Source: Chloroflexota bacterium
Lineage (GTDB): Bacteria > Chloroflexota > Anaerolineae > UBA1429
NCBI GenBank assembly: GCA_012729455.1
Contig: JAAYDC010000013.1
Coordinates: 30,585-94,584, forward strand
DNA length: 64,000 nucleotides
Direction: 5' to 3'
The notes under the pieces are model-generated. The model saw only the letters and a list, made by a program, of their open reading frames with translations. It was not told the origin of the DNA and did not search any database. Positions 2-64,000 of the stretch are shown piece by piece. The number at the start of each line of letters is the position of its first letter. The stretch's first letter is position 1. The position numbers and the translations under genes are program-made.

Positions 2-601
2 GAGCCCAAGATGCCAGTGATCAACTCCGAGGTGAACTTTGAGGGTATCCTCGAGGGCAGCCGCGAAGAGATCCAGCGCTTTGATTTCTGGGCTACCGTG
101 CTGCTGGGAGCGGGATTCACCTATGGCGCCAACGGCTTGTGGCAGATCAACCGCAAAGAACAGCTGTATGGGCCTTCGCCGCACGGCGCCTCGTGGGGCG
201 ATACCCCGTGGGACGAAGCCGCACGGCTCAAGGGCGGCGAGCAGGTAGCGCTGGGCAAGCAATTCCTGATGCGTTACCCGTGGTGGGAGTTTGAGGCGCA
301 TCCGGAGTGGATCGACGGGGCGGCTACCAACGAAAAACCGTTGGCCCCCTACCCGGCCGGCATACCGGGCCAGCTGCGCCTGATCTACTTCCCCAAGCCG
401 ATCTTTCCGTGGGGTTCAAACCCGACCCGTCTGCGCCAACTCGAGCAGGGTGTGACCTATCGTGCCTTTTGGTTCAACCCGCGCACCGGCGCCGAGCATC
501 AGCTGGATAACATCAGCGCCGACGCCGAGGGTTCGGCTGCGCTGCCGATCCCGGTGGTGATGCAGGACTGGCTGCTGGTGCTCGAACGCATAGCCGGCTG
601 A
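2..601 (+). CDS. C-terminal part of an apiosidase-like/DUF4038-type glycoside hydrolase (5' end outside window)
   Basis: Open frame continues upstream of the ATG at 11 (E-P-K-M-PVINSEVNFEGI); 'PVINSE.NFEGI' resembles the DUF4038/apiosidase-like family. Confidence 0.6.
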   Translation, partial: EPKMPVINSEVNFEGILEGSREEIQRFDFWATVLLGAGFTYGANGLWQINRKEQLYGPSPHGASWGDTPWDEAARLKGGEQVALGKQFLMRYPWWEFEAHPEWIDGAATNEKPLAPYPAGIPGQLRLIYFPKPIFPWGSNPTRLRQLEQGVTYRAFWFNPRTGAEHQLDNISADAEGSAALPIPVVMQDWLLVLERIAG

Positions 602-613
602 GGGTGAGGTAAG

Positions 614-2959
614 ATGAACCACTATCAACAGCGCATAGTGCTGAGCCTGGATGGCGCCTGGAAGCTGGCGATCGGCAGTGAGGAGCAAAACCAGGATTAC
701 AGCACCTGGCAGGAACTTGCCGATGCCGGGCTCGAACCTCTGCCGGCAACGGTGCCCGGCAACCTGGAGCTGGACCTGCAGGCTGCCGGCCAGCTGCCCG
801 AACCGTTTTTTGGTATGAACATGACCAGGCTTGCCGAGCTGGAGCGTATGCACGTGTGGTACGGGCGCACCTTTACAGCACCGGAAGGCCTGGGCGAGGA
901 TGTGCGGCTGCTTTTTGAGGGGCTGGACTGCCTGGCTGAGATTTACCTCAACGGTGAGATGCTCGCCTACACCGATAACATGCTCATCGAGCACGAGATC
1001 TCGACTGTCGGCCTGCTCAGGCCGGGCGAAGAGAACGAGCTGCTGGTACACATCAGCCCGGTACTCATCGCCGCCCAGGACTATGCCTACCCAGCCGGGT
1101 TGCACGCCGGGGCAGCCTCGTTCGAGAGCCTCTATATCCGCAAAGCCCCGCATATGTTCGGTTGGGATATCATGCCGCGCGCCCTCTCGGCCGGCATGTG
1201 GCGGCCGGTCAGCCTGGTGGCGTATCCTGAAGAGTACATCGCCGAGGTGTACCTCGAGACGCTCTCGCTCACTGCCGACCACTCCAGCGCGGATATGCTG
1301 CTGCACTTTGATTGCGCCATCGCCAACGCCGCTCAGGATACCTATGAGATCGAGATCGCCGGCACTAGCGGCGACTTGGCCTTTGCCCATCGCCAGCGCA
1401 TCCTGTTTGGCGCGGGCAACAGCCGCTTTCGTGTGACCAGGCCGGCATTGTGGTGGCCGAAAGGACGCGGTGAACAGGCGCTCTACGACTGCACTGTGAC
1501 GCTCTACAGAAATGGCGCCCAGATCGACCAGCTATGCTTCCGCACCGGCATCCGCACCACCGAGCTCAAACGCAGTAGCATCACCGACGAGCAGGGCTCG
1601 GGCGAGTTTTGCTTTATCATCAACGGTGAGCGCGTCTTTGTGCACGGCTCTAACTGGGTGCCGGCAGATGCCTTTCACTCGCGCGACCGCGCGCGCATTC
1701 CGAGCATCATTGACATGGCGGTGGACCTGAACATCAACATGTTCCGTTGCTGGGGCGGCAACGTCTACGAAGACGACCTGTTTTATGCCCTGTGCGACGA
1801 GAACGGCATCATGGTCTGGCAGGATTTCTCGATGGCCTGCGCGGTGTATCCGCAGGATGAGGACTTTCAGCAGGCCCTTGACGAAGAGGCGCGCGCCGTG
1901 GTGCGCCGGCTGCGGATGCATCCGGCGATCGTGCTGTGGGCGGGCGACAACGAATGCGATTCGTCGTATTCGTGGAATGGCCGCCTGCGCGACCCGAACC
2001 ACAACGTGCTGACGCGCAAGGTGCTGCCGCAGGTGCTGCGCGATGAAGACCCCGCACGGCCCTATCTGCCGAGTTCACCTTATGTCGATGACGTGGCTTT
2101 CCAGGCAGGCGAGATCTACTTGCCTGAGGCGCACCTGTGGGGTCCGCGCGACTATTTCAAGAGCTCGTACTATAAAACGGCGTTGTGTCACTTTGCCAGC
2201 GAGATCGGCTACCACGGCTGCCCAGCGCCAAAATCGATCGAAAAGTTTATCTCGCCGGATAAAATCTGGCCATATCACGATAACGAAGAGTGGCAACTGC
2301 ACTCGACCTCGCCAGTGCCCGATATGCGCCTGTTTGACGGGCGTGTGCAGCTGATGGAAAAGCAGGTGCGCGAGCTGTTTGGTACCGTTCCGGATAACCT
2401 GGCGAGCTACGCCCTGGCCAGCCAGATCTCGCAGGCTGAGGCGAAAAAGTTCTTTGTAGAGCTCTTCCGTACCATGAAGTGGCGCCGAACCGGCATCCTG
2501 TGGTGGAACCTGATGGATGGCTGGCCGCAGTTCTCGGATGCCATTGTCGACTATTACTTTAACCGCAAGCTGGCCTACCAATACCTCAAGCGCTCGCAGA
2601 TGCCGCTGTGCCTGGTGCTGCGCGAACCGAGCCACTGGGAACAGGGGCTGATCGCCTGCAACGATACCCGCATCGACCTAAAGGTGCGCTACAGCGTCAC
2701 CGACCAATCCAGCGGCCAGGTAGTACTGGAAGGCGAGGGCACCGCCTGGCGCGACGCCAGCACCGAGCTCGGACGCATTCCCTTTTCGATGGGCAGCCAC
2801 CGGCTGTACGTCATCCGCTGGGGAAGCGACTTGGGCACGGGAGCCAACCACTACCTGGCGGGCAATCCGCCCTTTGATTTCGCCCAGTACGGCAGCTGGA
2901 TGCTTGGCTCGGGCCTGCTGAATGAGGACTGGCTGCGCCAAAACAGCATGCACTTTTAG
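614..2959 (+). CDS. Glycoside hydrolase family 2, beta-mannosidase-like
   Basis: 781 aa; LSLDGAWKLAIG, VPGNLELDL, RCWGGNVYEDDLFYALCDENGIMVWQDF, LWAGDNECD typical of GH2 mannosidases. Confidence 0.9.
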   Translation: MNHYQQRIVLSLDGAWKLAIGSEEQNQDYSTWQELADAGLEPLPATVPGNLELDLQAAGQLPEPFFGMNMTRLAELERMHVWYGRTFTAPEGLGEDVRLLFEGLDCLAEIYLNGEMLAYTDNMLIEHEISTVGLLRPGEENELLVHISPVLIAAQDYAYPAGLHAGAASFESLYIRKAPHMFGWDIMPRALSAGMWRPVSLVAYPEEYIAEVYLETLSLTADHSSADMLLHFDCAIANAAQDTYEIEIAGTSGDLAFAHRQRILFGAGNSRFRVTRPALWWPKGRGEQALYDCTVTLYRNGAQIDQLCFRTGIRTTELKRSSITDEQGSGEFCFIINGERVFVHGSNWVPADAFHSRDRARIPSIIDMAVDLNINMFRCWGGNVYEDDLFYALCDENGIMVWQDFSMACAVYPQDEDFQQALDEEARAVVRRLRMHPAIVLWAGDNECDSSYSWNGRLRDPNHNVLTRKVLPQVLRDEDPARPYLPSSPYVDDVAFQAGEIYLPEAHLWGPRDYFKSSYYKTALCHFASEIGYHGCPAPKSIEKFISPDKIWPYHDNEEWQLHSTSPVPDMRLFDGRVQLMEKQVRELFGTVPDNLASYALASQISQAEAKKFFVELFRTMKWRRTGILWWNLMDGWPQFSDAIVDYYFNRKLAYQYLKRSQMPLCLVLREPSHWEQGLIACNDTRIDLKVRYSVTDQSSGQVVLEGEGTAWRDASTELGRIPFSMGSHRLYVIRWGSDLGTGANHYLAGNPPFDFAQYGSWMLGSGLLNEDWLRQNSMHF

Positions 2960-2974
2960 CTAGCTGCGTCTCCC

Positions 2975-3003
2975 AAGGGGCAGCCACGCGCTGCCCCTTT
3001 TGT
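2975..3003 (+). terminator. Rho-independent terminator
   Basis: AAGGGGCAG..CTGCCCCTT followed by TTTT just after the GH2 stop. Confidence 0.7.
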
Positions 3004-3087
3004 ATTGCAGTGTTTCGTTTTGGACATGGCTTGGTCTATACTGACGTTTGAACACGCACGCGTTTCAGTGTGCCCAGGAGGCCAAGC

Positions 3088-4305
3088 ATGCCAGCAATCG
3101 AAATCCGCCCGGATATTTACTGGATCGGCGTGAACGACCGCACCACCGACCTGTTTGAAGGGATGTGGCCGATCACCGAAGAGGGCGTCTCATACAACTC
3201 GTACCTGATCCTGGATGAGAAAAAAGCACTGATCGATATCACCAGGAACACCCAGGAAGCCAACCTGCTCGCCCAGCTGCAGGGCAGGCTGGATTGCCAC
3301 GAGCTCGACTATATCGTCGTCAACCATATGGAGCCCGACCACACCGGCGCGCTGAGGGTGCTACGCAGCCTGGCACCCCAGGCCACCATCCTGTGCAGCG
3401 CCAAAGCCCAGGCGATGCTGAAGGACTACTATGGCATCACCGACAATGTGCAGGTGGTGGCGGATGGCGAGACGCTCTCGCTGGGCAAGCATCAGCTCCA
3501 GTTCCACATGATCCCCTTTGTGCACTGGCCCGAAACGATGGCCACCTACGAGACGACTGAAAAGGTGCTCTTTTCGTGCGATGCTTTTGGCGGCTATGGC
3601 GCCCTGCGCGGCAGCATCTTTGACGACCAGGCTGTCGACCTTGCGCACTATGAGCGCGAGGCGCTGCGCTATTATGTCAATATTGTAGCGCGCTTTTCGC
3701 AGCCGACTCTGAACGCCATAAAAAAGCTGGGTGGCATCGAGATCGCCGTTGTGGCACCCTCGCACGGGCTGATCTGGCGGCGCGACACGAAGCGCATCAT
3801 CGAGCTCTACCGTCAGTGGGCGCTGCTGGCAACCAACCAGCCCGATCCGGGCGTCACGCTGATCTATGGCAGCATGTATGGCAACACCGAGGCGATGATG
3901 AACGCCGTGGCGCAGGGCATCTCGCGCGCCGGCGTGCCGGTGGAAATATTCAACGCCGCGCGCACGCATGCCAGCTATATCCTGCCCTCGGTATGGACGC
4001 ACAGCGGAGTGATGATCGGCGCGCCTACCTACGAAGTGGGCCTCTTTACGCCCATGGCTGAGCAGCTGCGCTATATCATCGAAAAGCGCATCAGCAACCG
4101 CAAAGCGGCCTTTTTTGGCAGCTATGGCTGGAGCGGCGGCGCCCTCAAGACGGCCAAGCAGCTGGTCGAACCGCTCAAGTGGGAATGGGTCGAGACGCTC
4201 GAGTTCCAGGGGCGTGCCACGCTTGAGCAGCTGGCTGAGGGCGAAGCTTTTGGCTACCGCTTTGCTGAGAGCTTGAAACCGCAGCAGGGGGTAATCCCTC
4301 AATAA
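3088..4305 (+). CDS. A-type flavoprotein / flavodiiron protein (MBL + flavodoxin domains)
   Basis: NHMEPDHTGAL, flavodoxin 'IYGSMYGNTEAMMNA', 'GAPTYEVGLF'; RBS AGGAGG precedes ATG 3088, favouring it over the ORF-track GTG 3070. Confidence 0.9.
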   Translation: MPAIEIRPDIYWIGVNDRTTDLFEGMWPITEEGVSYNSYLILDEKKALIDITRNTQEANLLAQLQGRLDCHELDYIVVNHMEPDHTGALRVLRSLAPQATILCSAKAQAMLKDYYGITDNVQVVADGETLSLGKHQLQFHMIPFVHWPETMATYETTEKVLFSCDAFGGYGALRGSIFDDQAVDLAHYEREALRYYVNIVARFSQPTLNAIKKLGGIEIAVVAPSHGLIWRRDTKRIIELYRQWALLATNQPDPGVTLIYGSMYGNTEAMMNAVAQGISRAGVPVEIFNAARTHASYILPSVWTHSGVMIGAPTYEVGLFTPMAEQLRYIIEKRISNRKAAFFGSYGWSGGALKTAKQLVEPLKWEWVETLEFQGRATLEQLAEGEAFGYRFAESLKPQQGVIPQ

Positions 4306-5514: not shown

Positions 5515-6099
5515 ATGAATGAAGCGGCGCTCATCGCGCAAGGCGTACAAGGCAGCGTTGAGGCCTTTAACCAACTGGTGCTGCATTACCAGCAGGCGGC
5601 CTACAACGTCGCTTATCGTATACTGGGCGATGCCGACGCCGCTACCGATGCCACCCAGGATGCCTTTATCCGCTGTTATAACGCCCTCGACCAGTTCCAT
5701 GGGCCCACGCTGCGGCCTTGGCTGTTGCGCATCGTTACCAACTGCTGCTATGACCAGTTGCGCGCACGCTTCCGCCGTCCTGCTACCCCCATCGACGATC
5801 TGGTAGAAGACGAAGAGGCTAGCTACCTCCTGCGCGACGACCAACCCTCCCCTGAGCAGGTTCTCGAACAGAGCGACCTCAACAGCCTGCTTCAGAACGC
5901 GCTCGCGCAGCTGCCGCCCGAGCAGCGTGCCGTGGTAGTGCTGGCGGATATCGAGCAGATGTCGTACGAAGAGATCGCCCTGGTCATGTCGTTGGCGCTG
6001 GGGACGGTCAAATCGCGTCTGAATCGCGCGCGCAGCAAGCTGCGCGACTATATGCTCGCTCACAAGGAACAATTACCCGATCGATACCGTTTATCCTAG
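5515..6099 (+). CDS. ECF-type RNA polymerase sigma-70 factor
   Basis: FNQLVLHYQQAAYNVAYRILGDADAATDATQDAFIRCYN; LPPEQRAVVVLADIEQMSYEEIALVMSLALGTVKSRLNRARSKLRDYM. Confidence 0.93.
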   Translation: MNEAALIAQGVQGSVEAFNQLVLHYQQAAYNVAYRILGDADAATDATQDAFIRCYNALDQFHGPTLRPWLLRIVTNCCYDQLRARFRRPATPIDDLVEDEEASYLLRDDQPSPEQVLEQSDLNSLLQNALAQLPPEQRAVVVLADIEQMSYEEIALVMSLALGTVKSRLNRARSKLRDYMLAHKEQLPDRYRLS

Positions 6100-7908: not shown

Positions 7909-9010
7909 ATGGAAGACCTGGAACTGCGCCTGAAAGCGATGCTGAGTGAAGTACGCGACCTTGCGGAGCGTCTTTGACCTCGCGAGCATGCGCGCACAGG
8001 CTGCTGAATTACACGAACGCTCTGCCGCCCAGGACTTGTGGGAGAACCCCGACCAGGCTCAGAGCCTGATGCAAGAACTTGCGGTATTGCAGGGCGAGGT
8101 GGATGCCTGGGACCAACTCATCCGCCAGACCGATGAACTGAACGAGCTTTACGAATTGGCCAGCAGCGAGCAGGATGAGGCCATGCTCGCCGACCTTGAG
8201 CCCGAGACCGAGGCGGTTGCTGCCAAACTGGCCGAAATGCGCCTGCGCACGCTGATGTCAGGCCCGCATGATAGTGCCGATGCGATCATGACGATTTATT
8301 CCGGCGCGGGCGGCACCGAATCGCAGGACTGGGCCTCGATTTTAATGCGCATGTATCTGCGCTGGGCTGAACGGCGCGGCTTTACCACCGAGATACTGGA
8401 AGAGACGGAGGGCGACCAGGCCGGCATCAAGGAAGTGACCTTTGAAATCCGCGGCAAAAACGTGTATGGCAACCTGCGCTCAGAGCGCGGCGTGCACCGC
8501 TTGGTACGTATCTCACCCTTTGATAATGCCAAACGCCGCCATACCTCGTTTGCGCTGGTAGAGGTGATCCCCGATGTGACCGATGAGGTCACCGTCGAGC
8601 TGAACATGGACGACGTGCGGGTCGATGTGTTTCACGCCTCGGGCCATGGCGGACAAAATGTGCAGAAAAACTCGACCGCGGTGCGTCTGACACACCTACC
8701 CACCGGCATTGTGGTGAGCTGCCAGAACGAACGCTCGCAGCTGCAGAATCGCGAGCGCGCTATGGCAGTGTTAAAGGCACGTCTTTACAGCCTGGGACTG
8801 GCTCGCCAGGAAGAAGAGCAGGCCAAGCTGCGCGGTGAGTTCATCACACCCGGCTGGGGCAACCAGATCCGGTCGTACGTGCTGCAGCCCTACCGCATGG
8901 TCAAGGATCTGCGCAGCGACTATGAAACCGGCAACACAACCGCCGTTCTGGACGGTGATCTTGACGAAATAATCAGCTCTTATCTACAATATATGGTAGG
9001 TAAAAACTAG
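7909..9010 (+). CDS. prfB: Peptide chain release factor 2 with programmed +1 frameshift, join(7909..7974,7976..9010)
   Basis: ATG 7909 reads 22 codons to CTT TGA (7972-7977); +1 frame continues into RF2 with GGQ (SGHGGQNVQKNSTAVRL). Confidence 0.95.
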
Positions 9011-59372: not shown

Positions 59373-61367
59373 CTATTCCTCCATGTACCACTGTTCCATG
59401 GAGTGCATCGTAACGATGCCCATCGTGTTGCTGATCCCGACGGGGACGTTGCGCATCTTCTTCGTAAAGAAGGTCGGATAGTACGAGTGCTCGACAGGCA
59501 CGAAATACCAGATATTGTCGCGATAGTTTTTCAGGATCTCCTGGTAAGCTCCCAATGACTCGGGCGAGCCCACCGGCAAGGTCACCAGCTTTGTATGGTT
59601 GGCATAAATCTCTCGCACTTCGGTGGGCGGCTCTTCGCCCGTTTCGCCGGAGGTCGCATACCACTGCTGCCATTCGCGGCCGGGGATATCAGTATAGTCG
59701 GTATAGGCATAGGGCCACAGGTCGTGAGTGCCCCATGAAGCAGTCGCCATGATCTCGTTGGCGTTCCACTTGGGTCCATAGAGGGCTGAGTCCATATTCG
59801 ATGCGGTGGTGTAGACACCGACGTTGCTCCAGTATTCCGCCACCAACTCACCGATTGGCAGCAGGTCCTCGTCACTTTGAACAATATCAAAGCGGATCTC
59901 AAAACGCTTGCCATCCGGGCCAAGGCGGAAGCCCTCGGCATCCTTTTTGTCCATGCCCATCTCGTCGAGCAGGGCGTTGGCCCTCTCGACGTTGTATTCC
60001 GGGTCGTTCAACTCGGTTGCCAGCTGGCCATATTCGCCAAAGTAGAATATGTCGAGGATCTCCTGGCGGTTGATCGCCAGGCTGAGGGCACGGCGGAAGC
60101 GTATATCTCTGACAACCTTGCGCCAGTTCTCGTCGGGGTAGGTAAAGTTCAGCCGATACGAACTGGGCAGGCGGTGCATGCGTGCCATATAAATGTTGAT
60201 CAGCCCTTTGTCTTCCTGCTCCTTCATCAGAGGCAGTTTTTTCAACGAAGAGCGCTCGCCGGGGTAGTCATACTCGCCCGTCAAGGCGCGCATCATCAGG
60301 GTTTCGCGGTCTGCCACCACCTCGGAGCGGATGCCGTCGATATAGGGCAGTTGGTTGCCCTCGGTGTCGACCTTGTAGTAGTAGGGGTTGCGCTCAAAGG
60401 TAAAGACACCGGCTTCTACCTTTTTGACCACCCAGGGCGTGAGGACGGGGTGCCCGATGCCAGCCTCGTTGGTGATATTCCAGGCCCAGCCAGTGATCTG
60501 CTTGGCGTTAAAGAGGTTAAACCACTGGTCATCAGCAATCGACTCGGCCGCCATGAGCGGCTGCAGTTCTTCGAGCGGCGTGTACTTGATATGAAATTGT
60601 TTGAGGTAGTGCGCCGGCTTGATCAGGTCCTGGTAGCCAATCCACCCACTGATCGCCACGTGAGCCGGGAAGCTGCCATAGGGCTTGTCAAAGGTGAGTT
60701 TAAAGGTAAAGTCATCCACCACCGTAAGGGTGGCGGGGTTCCCATCGGGATTATACTCGGACTTGTAGCGCGCTGGAAAGATGGGGGTGATCTCTTCATT
60801 CATCAGGACGTCTTCCCAGGCGAACTTGACGTCAGCCGTGGTGACGGGCTCGCCGTCGGACCAGCGCAGGCCTTCGCGCATGAAAAAGGTAAACTCGGTG
60901 CCCTCGTCATTGACCTCATAGCCCTTGACAACGTTGCCATGCACGCCCTTTTCGAACTCAAAGGCGGCGGGAGCCCAGAGAAGCGCCTCGTTCATGCCGA
61001 TAAAGATGTGCGGGTCTCCAGTAGCGCTTTCCTGCGAGAGGCGCATGATCCCGCCATACTTGCCGGGCTGCCAATCCAAGTCAGCTTCATTCAAAAGGAC
61101 GCCAGGTCCCACCACGTAGGGCTCGAGCGGTAAGCGCTCTTCGATGGGCGGAAGGGTGCCGGCCTTGACCATCTCTGCCAGCATGGGCGCTTCCTGGTAC
61201 TTGGCCGGTGCTGCCAGAGTGGGCTGCTGCTCGGCATCTTTGGTGGTCTCAGTAGTATCCTTGGTTGGTTCGGGCTCAGAAGCGGACGGTGCGCCGCAGG
61301 CAACCAGGGCTGCCCCAGCAGCGCCCACCAGCGACATCTGTAAGAATTGACGACGCGTGTGTTTCAT
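59373..61367 (-). CDS. ABC transporter substrate-binding protein, lipoprotein/TAT-like signal
   Basis: MKHTRRQFLQMSLVGAAGAALVACGAPS; SBP_bac_5-like body (YEVNDEGTEFTFFMREGLRWSDGEPVTTADVKFAWEDVLMNEE). Confidence 0.92.
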   Translation of the reverse strand: MKHTRRQFLQMSLVGAAGAALVACGAPSASEPEPTKDTTETTKDAEQQPTLAAPAKYQEAPMLAEMVKAGTLPPIEERLPLEPYVVGPGVLLNEADLDWQPGKYGGIMRLSQESATGDPHIFIGMNEALLWAPAAFEFEKGVHGNVVKGYEVNDEGTEFTFFMREGLRWSDGEPVTTADVKFAWEDVLMNEEITPIFPARYKSEYNPDGNPATLTVVDDFTFKLTFDKPYGSFPAHVAISGWIGYQDLIKPAHYLKQFHIKYTPLEELQPLMAAESIADDQWFNLFNAKQITGWAWNITNEAGIGHPVLTPWVVKKVEAGVFTFERNPYYYKVDTEGNQLPYIDGIRSEVVADRETLMMRALTGEYDYPGERSSLKKLPLMKEQEDKGLINIYMARMHRLPSSYRLNFTYPDENWRKVVRDIRFRRALSLAINRQEILDIFYFGEYGQLATELNDPEYNVERANALLDEMGMDKKDAEGFRLGPDGKRFEIRFDIVQSDEDLLPIGELVAEYWSNVGVYTTASNMDSALYGPKWNANEIMATASWGTHDLWPYAYTDYTDIPGREWQQWYATSGETGEEPPTEVREIYANHTKLVTLPVGSPESLGAYQEILKNYRDNIWYFVPVEHSYYPTFFTKKMRNVPVGISNTMGIVTMHSMEQWYMEE

Positions 61368-61535
61368 GATCCCTCCTTTGTGATGAACCGTTGTTGATTG
61401 GACGTTACCGCGTGACCCACTAACACGGATGCCTCAATCTATTGCATCACAATCATCTTAACGCAAGGTTAATAAATGTCAACCAAGTTGAGACATCATT
61501 CTGTTTGCCAGGAGAATGTGTCATCAGCTTAATGT

Positions 61536-61564
61536 GTATTCCCCACACGCGTGGGGATGGATTA
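61536..61564 (+). CRISPR. Solitary type I-E-like CRISPR repeat (no array visible)
   Basis: GTATTCCCCACACGCGTGGGGATGGATTA; resembles I-E repeats of form G(T/A)NTTCCCC..GGGGATGAACC; no second copy at 60-62 bp spacing. Confidence 0.6.
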
Positions 61565-62067
61565 CCAGCAGGACGCAATGGCGCTGCTGATACCCAGGTC
61601 CGATGATGAGGGAAGCAGACAGCTCCCCAGAAAACAAATGTCATCGCGAATCAAGCATAAAAAGGACCTTTTACCTGATAGCTGGAGTGATATTATCACC
61701 GAACTTCATCTTTTTATCCTCGGCATAACAACCGGGCAGTAGTTACAGATGACTCTACTATCTTGTATTATATGCTTGGTGCGGCTTGTCTTGATAGCCG
61801 TGGTTTAGTAAAGCGAGCTTCATGGTAACGTTTTATGAAAAGCTCTAGTTCACTGGAATTACGAGTTCCTTATCCTGACCGTCATGTTGCCACTTGACGT
61901 ACACACCAACTTCCAATCAATTGTTCATAGTTGGAGCACCAAGGATCTGTGCGGTAGTTGCAACAATTGTGTGATATGCTTACTTCAGACCGATATGTCT
62001 GTGTCAGACTATCACAAGTCGCTTGTTGACCTGGTCAATTGTCGCCTTTAGTGCTAGGGAGGCTTGA

Positions 62068-64000
62068 ATGGATCTGCAAAGTACAAATCTCGGACCATCT
62101 GGGGAATACTCTCTACCTTTATACAGCGGGCTTCTTAATTTTTGGGGCAAGTATGACGCTGAGACAGGCCTGTATCACCCATTACTTTATCACTTGATCG
62201 ACACAGGCCTAGTTGCAGCCACACTGCTCAGTACCAGTCGAGGCAGGCTCTGGGCTGATTCACTTGCGACCAACTTTAGGTGTACCACCGAAAGCCTGAT
62301 CTGTTGGTTGCCGTTCTGGGTTGCAGTGCATGATATTGGTAAGCTAACCAGCGCATTTCAGGGTAGCATACAAAGCCAGTCCGAGAGACTGGCAGGCCAG
62401 GGAATAACAGCACTGCCTTATCCTGTTCAAGCCGCATATCACAGCACCTATTCTTCCAGTATCCTGAAAGAATATGCCCAAAAAACACTCTCAATAGACC
62501 TGGCAACCGTTGTCTTGACAGCTCTGGGCGGACATCATGGCGTATATCCGACCGCTCAGCAGCGACGACAGGCGGATAGTCACCTGCGGGAGTTCGAATC
62601 AGAGTACTGGCAAACGAAGCAGGAAACATGCCTCCAATGTGTGGCTGATATACTCCCTGCCGTGAGCTGGCCAGAGGCACAGGTCAACAATGTATCTACT
62701 GCTATTGCCTCGCTAACTGGGTTGGTCATTCTATGTGATTGGTTAGCGTCCAACGAGATTGACTACCCCATGCAGCCCACCATGAATATCACAGACTATG
62801 TAAAACACTCTCGTATGGTTGCAGAGCAAGTGGTGGAGAAACGCGGGTTTGACCTTCCACCTCAGAGTACCAGCCCGACTTTGTTTGGTGATTTGTTCTA
62901 CGAATACGATCCTCGTCCTCTTCAGCAGGCGATCGACCATATTCCTGATAACATGCTATGCCATGCATGCTTGACTATCATCGAAGCTCCAACTGGTGAA
63001 GGTAAAACGGAAGCCGCTCTGGCATTGGCACATCGGATTGCCCAGCACACAGGTAGTGATGCTTTCTACTATGCGCTGCCTACGACCGCCACCAGCAACC
63101 AGATGTTTCAACGTATCGCACGCTACCTGAAGGACACACTTGGTCTCGATACGAGCGTCAAGCTCGTGCATGGACAATCTTTTATGACCGAGAGCGCACT
63201 CCTTACTCGGGCTCTAGGCACAGACGAGGGGCGTCTTCCAGACGATTGGTATACCCCTAAAAAACGTGCTCTATTAGCACCGTTTGGCGTCGGGACCGTC
63301 GATCAAGCTGAACTTGCTGTTCTCAATGTGCGATACGGTATTCTGCGTTTATTTGGCCTATACGGAAAGACGGTAATTATCGACGAAGTTCACGCATATG
63401 ACACCTACATGAGCACCATTATCGATCGCCTGCTCGCCTGGTTAGCCGCAGCGGGTAGCTCTGTCATTTTGCTCTCTGCGACACGGCCTCAGAGTAGGAA
63501 ACGTGAGTTAATGCTAGCCTACTCAAATCAAGCGTTCGAGTCTGACTCTAACGCGTACCCAAGTATAGCTGTCACTCAAGCTCCAGGATCGGAAAGCACG
63601 GTATTACCAGAACATTGCGTCCTCAATCCTCCTGCTACACATCCAGAGCGTATACTGCAACTCCAAAAGCTCCCGGATACCATCGACCCAGTTGCCGCAG
63701 CCGTATGGCTCGTAGATACCATTCGTGATGGTGGGTGCGTATCTTGGATTACAAACACCGTTCGTAGAGCCCAGGAGATATTCATCGAGGTAGACAAGCT
63801 AGCGCCACCTGATGTCCATCGGCTTCTGATCCATGCTCGCTACCCTCTAGATACTCGTTCGAGCCTTGAGGAGCAAGTGACTAACCGCTACGGCAAAGGA
63901 GGTGCCAGGCCCGCTAAAGGCATCGTGATCGGTACCCAGGTCCTTGAGCAGAGCTTGGATCTGGATTTCGATGTAATGGTATCTGACCTCGCGCCGATTG
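62068..64000 (+). CDS. cas3: CRISPR-associated helicase/nuclease Cas3 (type I-E-like), truncated at window end
   Basis: Open frame from ATG 62068 to window end: HD motif VAVHDIGK, GGHHG, Walker A APTGEGKTEAALALAHR, DEVHAYDTYMSTIID, LLSATRPQ, GTQVLEQSLDLDFDVMVSDLAP; absent from ORF track because no stop is inside the window. Confidence 0.92.
   Translation, partial: MDLQSTNLGPSGEYSLPLYSGLLNFWGKYDAETGLYHPLLYHLIDTGLVAATLLSTSRGRLWADSLATNFRCTTESLICWLPFWVAVHDIGKLTSAFQGSIQSQSERLAGQGITALPYPVQAAYHSTYSSSILKEYAQKTLSIDLATVVLTALGGHHGVYPTAQQRRQADSHLREFESEYWQTKQETCLQCVADILPAVSWPEAQVNNVSTAIASLTGLVILCDWLASNEIDYPMQPTMNITDYVKHSRMVAEQVVEKRGFDLPPQSTSPTLFGDLFYEYDPRPLQQAIDHIPDNMLCHACLTIIEAPTGEGKTEAALALAHRIAQHTGSDAFYYALPTTATSNQMFQRIARYLKDTLGLDTSVKLVHGQSFMTESALLTRALGTDEGRLPDDWYTPKKRALLAPFGVGTVDQAELAVLNVRYGILRLFGLYGKTVIIDEVHAYDTYMSTIIDRLLAWLAAAGSSVILLSATRPQSRKRELMLAYSNQAFESDSNAYPSIAVTQAPGSESTVLPEHCVLNPPATHPERILQLQKLPDTIDPVAAAVWLVDTIRDGGCVSWITNTVRRAQEIFIEVDKLAPPDVHRLLIHARYPLDTRSSLEEQVTNRYGKGGARPAKGIVIGTQVLEQSLDLDFDVMVSDLAPI

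Follow-up and report, generated by a model that had tools for sequence, protein, structure and literature searches.

Solitary and degenerate repeats outside CRISPR arrays

In the CreA regulators, guide positions 1–5 and 7–11 pair with a target promoter beside a PAM; most creA genes possess two degenerate repeats, and a one-repeat form occurs in H. hispanica (PMC8501985). CreR is a related form that acts on cas promoters (reviewed in PMC12737573). Racrs are phage RNA anti-CRISPRs derived from solitary repeats, which often lie just downstream of a predicted promoter and whose products bind Cas6f and Cas7f; the Racr RNA possesses the Cas6-binding stem without the 5′ handle, and Racrs have been described on viruses and plasmids, away from cas genes (PMC10651486).

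The stretch of DNA analyzed here (the window) is 64,000 nucleotides long, corresponds to bases 30585–94584 of the 94,584-base contig C9, and contains a solitary, nearly perfect type I-E CRISPR repeat of 29 nt, GTATTCCCCACACGCGTGGGGATGGATTA, located 503 bp before cas3. As in the CreR/CreA systems, a repeat-like sequence with a Cas6 stem stands outside an array and adjoins the cas operon (PMC8501985, PMC9458426, PMC12737573). In contrast to them, the window repeat has no PAM-flanked seed target at the sites examined and no retained handle, second repeat or T-rich terminator. With Racrs it shares the single repeat, the intact Cas6 stem, a handle that is non-functional by its sequence and a promoter-like site just upstream (a weak consensus match), whereas it is chromosomal and lies between an ABC-transporter operon and cas3, not on a recognizable mobile element. 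It also resembles ectopic and terminal I-E repeats, being a single cognate-type repeat near cas genes with the stem kept and the handle degenerate, but it has no adjoining array, and its descent is deduced while its own array is unassembled. We favor, with moderate confidence, the reading that it is an ectopic type I-E repeat, a relic left behind when an array next to cas3 either collapsed or was moved elsewhere. The features of the locus are as follows.

59373–61367, minus strand: divergent neighbor, a family 5 extracellular solute-binding protein of a peptide-type ABC transporter (Pfam SBP_bac_5, 2e-48)
61488–61517, plus strand: weak sigma-70-like promoter match, TTGAGA-18-GAGAAT, 9/12, a consensus match only
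61536–61564, plus strand: solitary type I-E CRISPR repeat, identical at 26/29 positions to the L024 array repeat and unique in the window and the genome
61540–61557, plus strand: intact Cas6e-type stem-loop with a 7 bp stem and a 4-nt loop (RNA fold −12.8 kcal/mol)
61557–61564, plus strand: would-be crRNA 5′ handle ATGGATTA, its end decayed (relatives have ATGGACCG)
61565–61596, plus strand: would-be spacer of 32 nt, with a self-complementary hairpin at about 61566–61589 and no PAM-flanked seed target found
62068–64000, plus strand: type I-E cas3, truncated where the contig stops (PADLOC Cas3e, 8.7e-151; Pfam Cas3_HD, 1.1e-39)

The cas locus and the limits of the assembly

The cas3 frame carries the Pfam domains Cas3_HD, DEAD and Cas3 C-terminal and stays open up to the contig end, which falls inside the gene and coincides with the final base of the window. 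Its closest publicly named Cas3 relatives belong to Chloroflexota, mostly to Anaerolineae MAGs, and in relatives the arrays typically sit at the distal end of the cas gene cluster, approximately 8–9 kb after the cas3 start. Neither Cas1 nor Cas7 was found in the other contigs of this 99.2%-complete assembly, and no I-E repeat pair occurs anywhere in it; the cas operon and the array probably lie in an assembly gap. The original prediction spoke of a repeat with no array, which holds for both the window and the assembly; however, because the contig stops inside cas3 and cas1, cas7 and the array are unassembled, this is not a biological statement.

Identity and uniqueness of the repeat

A single near-canonical I-E repeat about 500 bp before cas3 had been predicted from the sequence, and both the exact repeat and its distance from a gene that PADLOC assigns as Cas3e were confirmed. 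At up to three mismatches, it is the sole match in the 64-kb window (0 matches in 100 dinucleotide shuffles) and the sole I-E-like repeat of the 2.64-Mb genome, in which a full-length search finds itself alone. The expectation that no second copy stands at array spacing was also correct: none was found at ±61 bp or anywhere within 200 bp, the best other stretch reaching 15/29 (the palindrome's own reverse strand excepted), and a search for a decayed array near the repeat returned nothing. An array comprises at least two repeats with unique spacers, and a single copy was found here in the window and the genome. Rfam yielded only sub-threshold Chlorobi-1 matches (E 4–6), and a 63-aa frame running through the repeat (61551–61742) had no Pfam match.

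For comparison, array repeats were gathered from the cas loci of relatives. The first 26 bases of the window repeat are contiguously identical to the array repeat of L024, a related Anaerolineaceae MAG (GTATTCCCCACACGCGTGGGGATGGACCG), and the sole difference lies in the last three bases, in which CCG is replaced by TTA. The array repeat of the same-family genome G001 reads GTTTTCCCCACACGCGTGGGGATGGACC followed by G or A. Among the 396 genomes of the class, matches with up to three mismatches, besides that in its own genome, occur in G001 and G029 alone, and both of these genomes have loci with array spacing; no orthologous repeat was found in the family, either by DNA or by repeat pattern. The putative ancestral repeat sequence is that of the relatives' arrays, not of its own array. 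Since the repeat forms a strong inverted repeat inside a 700-bp divergent intergenic region, it might be a palindrome that arose by chance or binds a protein and only looks like a CRISPR repeat, but this is extremely improbable: the identity runs past the palindrome (GTATT before, ATGGA after), the other close matches in the class fall only in the two genomes whose loci show array spacing, and the profile score in the window is 29.6 at the repeat and 8.6 at the next best site. The 26-nt identity with repeats of genuine arrays that accompany I-E cas genes in relatives refutes the palindrome reading in practice. Nor is the motif a common non-CRISPR palindrome of this genome, as the core at up to two mismatches finds only one other place, an unrelated palindrome on contig C27.

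Stem, handle and a possible Cas6e-binding RNA

The fold energy of the stem-loop was equalled by 6 of 200 shuffles, the shuffle tests throughout being simple composition models. At repeat positions 27–28, CC is kept in 859 of 863 array repeats of relatives and is TT here, so that the handle ends in ATTA; the altered positions are not variable in arrays. With the stem intact and CC lost, the repeat retains its Cas6e-bound part and has a damaged crRNA 5′ handle. The would-be spacer forms a self-structure more stable than those of 98.8% of shuffles and, as a self-target in the genome, finds itself alone at up to three mismatches. A viral origin of this pseudo-spacer was rejected, as the one 18-nt IMG/VR match extends to just 21/32 and was taken as chance.

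The main rival to the relic is a Cas6e-binding RNA element carried by the leader of the cas3 transcript or by a short RNA, with transcription starting at the promoter-like site at 61488–61517; Cas6e and Cas7 would bind or cut this RNA, which could result in feedback on cas3 or act as a Racr-like decoy. Such an element is consistent with the intact stem and damaged handle, with the location of the repeat on the strand of cas3, with the promoter-like match that ends 18 bp upstream, and with the precedent of solitary repeats that bind Cas6f/Cas7f (PMC10651486). However, Racrs are viral or plasmid-borne and lie away from cas genes, whereas the neighbors here are an ABC-transporter operon and cas3, and with a promoter match of only 9/12 consensus positions we consider this reading possible but unlikely. 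No terminator was found near the repeat, and none that is T-rich after the would-be spacer. It is decidedly improbable that a host-encoded solitary repeat is transcribed ahead of cas3 and binds Cas6e/Cas7 handle-free, tuning Cascade or cas3 as a self-Racr or Cas6e-sensed leader and not as a guide. If true, a Cas6e-sensed element would mean guide-free regulation by the host of its own CRISPR system.

Guide-regulator tests of the window repeat

A one-repeat or degenerate two-repeat regulator of the CreR/CreA type would guide Cascade to the promoter of cas3 or of a toxin. The repeat does stand before cas3, the one-repeat creA of H. hispanica provides a precedent (PMC8501985), and two relatives, L050 and L073, bear such modules upstream of cas3. 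Comparison of the 32 nt after the repeat with the promoters of the cas locus, proposed in the original prediction and possible for the assembled part of the locus, gave a best local seed match of 7/10, a value that 98% of shuffles reach (p 0.98), and no PAM stood beside it, the PAM tested being AAG/ATG, which may not be that of this organism. In the genome, the seed pattern has 31 occurrences including the repeat's own copy, equal to the count for the reversed-pattern control. Among the 30 others, 29 were read (a match on contig C30 was left out); none of the 29 has an AAG/ATG PAM, and all sit within long open frames. Alternative guide starts between 61380 and 61700 reached 10/10 solely at two self-palindromes, and a scan of the window for handle, stem, seed and PAM combined gave zero matches. 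The repeat was also considered as the second of a pair, with an upstream pseudo-spacer, and no seed match of at least 9/10 was obtained from guide starts 61495–61515.

A guide regulator is made less likely mainly by the failed seed and handle tests, and we regard it as improbable at this locus; the window repeat probably makes no working guide. The CreA-like regulator suggested originally thus found no support here, given that neither the local matches nor the genome matches read include a PAM-flanked seed target, that the handle is lost and a second repeat is lacking, and that the pseudo-spacer is self-complementary.

Two-repeat modules upstream of cas3 in relatives

The regions upstream of 75 relatives' cas3 loci, which include a few duplicates of one contig and some stretches of only a few hundred bases, were scanned with the repeat profile. 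Only L050 and L073 were positive, each with two degenerate I-E repeats. In L050 (JAICWV010000093.1, Chloroflexi MAG LS_FP_2_bin.70, positions 5790–6086), the repeats are 61 bp apart just before cas3, and the pseudo-spacer TAGCGCGCTCTCGTGAGT... matches TAGCGCGCTCTTGCGAGT next to AAG upstream and also TAGCGCGCT next to ATG between the second repeat and cas3. In L073 (JACDGP010000067.1, Herpetosiphonaceae MAG, positions 8530–8790), the repeats are 62 bp apart, and the pseudo-spacer ATGAGTTGTAACTTCTTG... matches ATGAGATGTAAATTCTTG next to AAG, with mismatches at positions 6 and 12; this target site is located upstream of a WYL-domain regulator gene, which precedes cas3. By a test identical to that applied to the window, both loci show a 10/10 seed match with an AAG PAM, and both keep the handle (GTGGACCG in L073 and GTGATCCA in L050). 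When handle, stem, seed and PAM were required jointly and the repeat profile was set aside, three matches emerged against a null of 0.4 per set, namely L050, L073 and L035, the last of which has no repeat-like context. Further loci from across the class, many of them duplicates, contributed no additional repeat upstream of cas3, and no such repeat precedes cas3 in the closest relatives whose loci extend far enough upstream, among them L007–L010 and L027.

Judged from their sequence, the L050 and L073 modules are apparently genuine CreR-type modules and would place CreR-type control among the type I-E systems of Chloroflexota. The general idea of a regulator upstream of cas3 was therefore right for the wider clade, in which the CreR/CreA anatomy is present at these two loci. 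The test for handle, stem, seed and PAM separates the window repeat, which fails it, from L050 and L073, which pass, and the window repeat serves as a negative case in which a repeat plus its position is insufficient to call CreR.

Probable origin of the window repeat as an array relic

Of the readings offered originally, an array remnant fits best, as the stem is intact and the handle decayed as in some terminal repeats. We infer that the repeat arose by array collapse and lacks function. The array may have been lost by repeat–repeat recombination or displaced from beside cas3. The stem would be kept as in some leader-distal terminal repeats, in which the last crRNA uses it at its 3′ end, and the 5′ handle would decay, having no following spacer to serve; an array recombined down to one repeat could leave this intact-stem, decayed-handle form at the trailer side. 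In the array of L134, the terminal repeat GGGGCTGGATCT agrees with the consensus GGGGATGGACCG at 21/21 positions of the stem part and at 5/8 of the handle. Terminal handles of 5/8 or worse occur in four of the 12 arrays with a visible end, and the handle is intact or nearly so in seven, so that this asymmetry is not a rule for terminal repeats. A neutral relic would be expected to degenerate over its whole length; with 26 of 29 bases intact, this relic would be recent or its stem selected.

No recognizable leader or earlier repeat was found upstream of the window repeat. It is directly preceded by ATGT, whereas AG stands at −3/−2 in 29 of 36 relatives' arrays (mostly AAGG or TAGT), and the suggestion of a leader-end relic was not borne out. 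On its own, the window repeat is most likely a minor relic.

Additional observations on related loci

In L138 (positions 421–4173), the N-terminus of Cas3 continues into a helix-turn-helix/WYL-like regulator within one 1,250-aa frame, the domain having been read by eye; the window cas3 is without this part. Frames of 1,100–1,270 aa, similar in length to that of L138, occur in many relatives, for example L135, L137, L141, L143 and L146. Short I-E arrays are also present on three IMG/VR contigs labelled viral, L132 (5490–5720), L133 (95–370) and L134 (3070–3350), and the core of their array repeats, CCCCACACGCGTGGGGATGGA, is the same as that of the window repeat.
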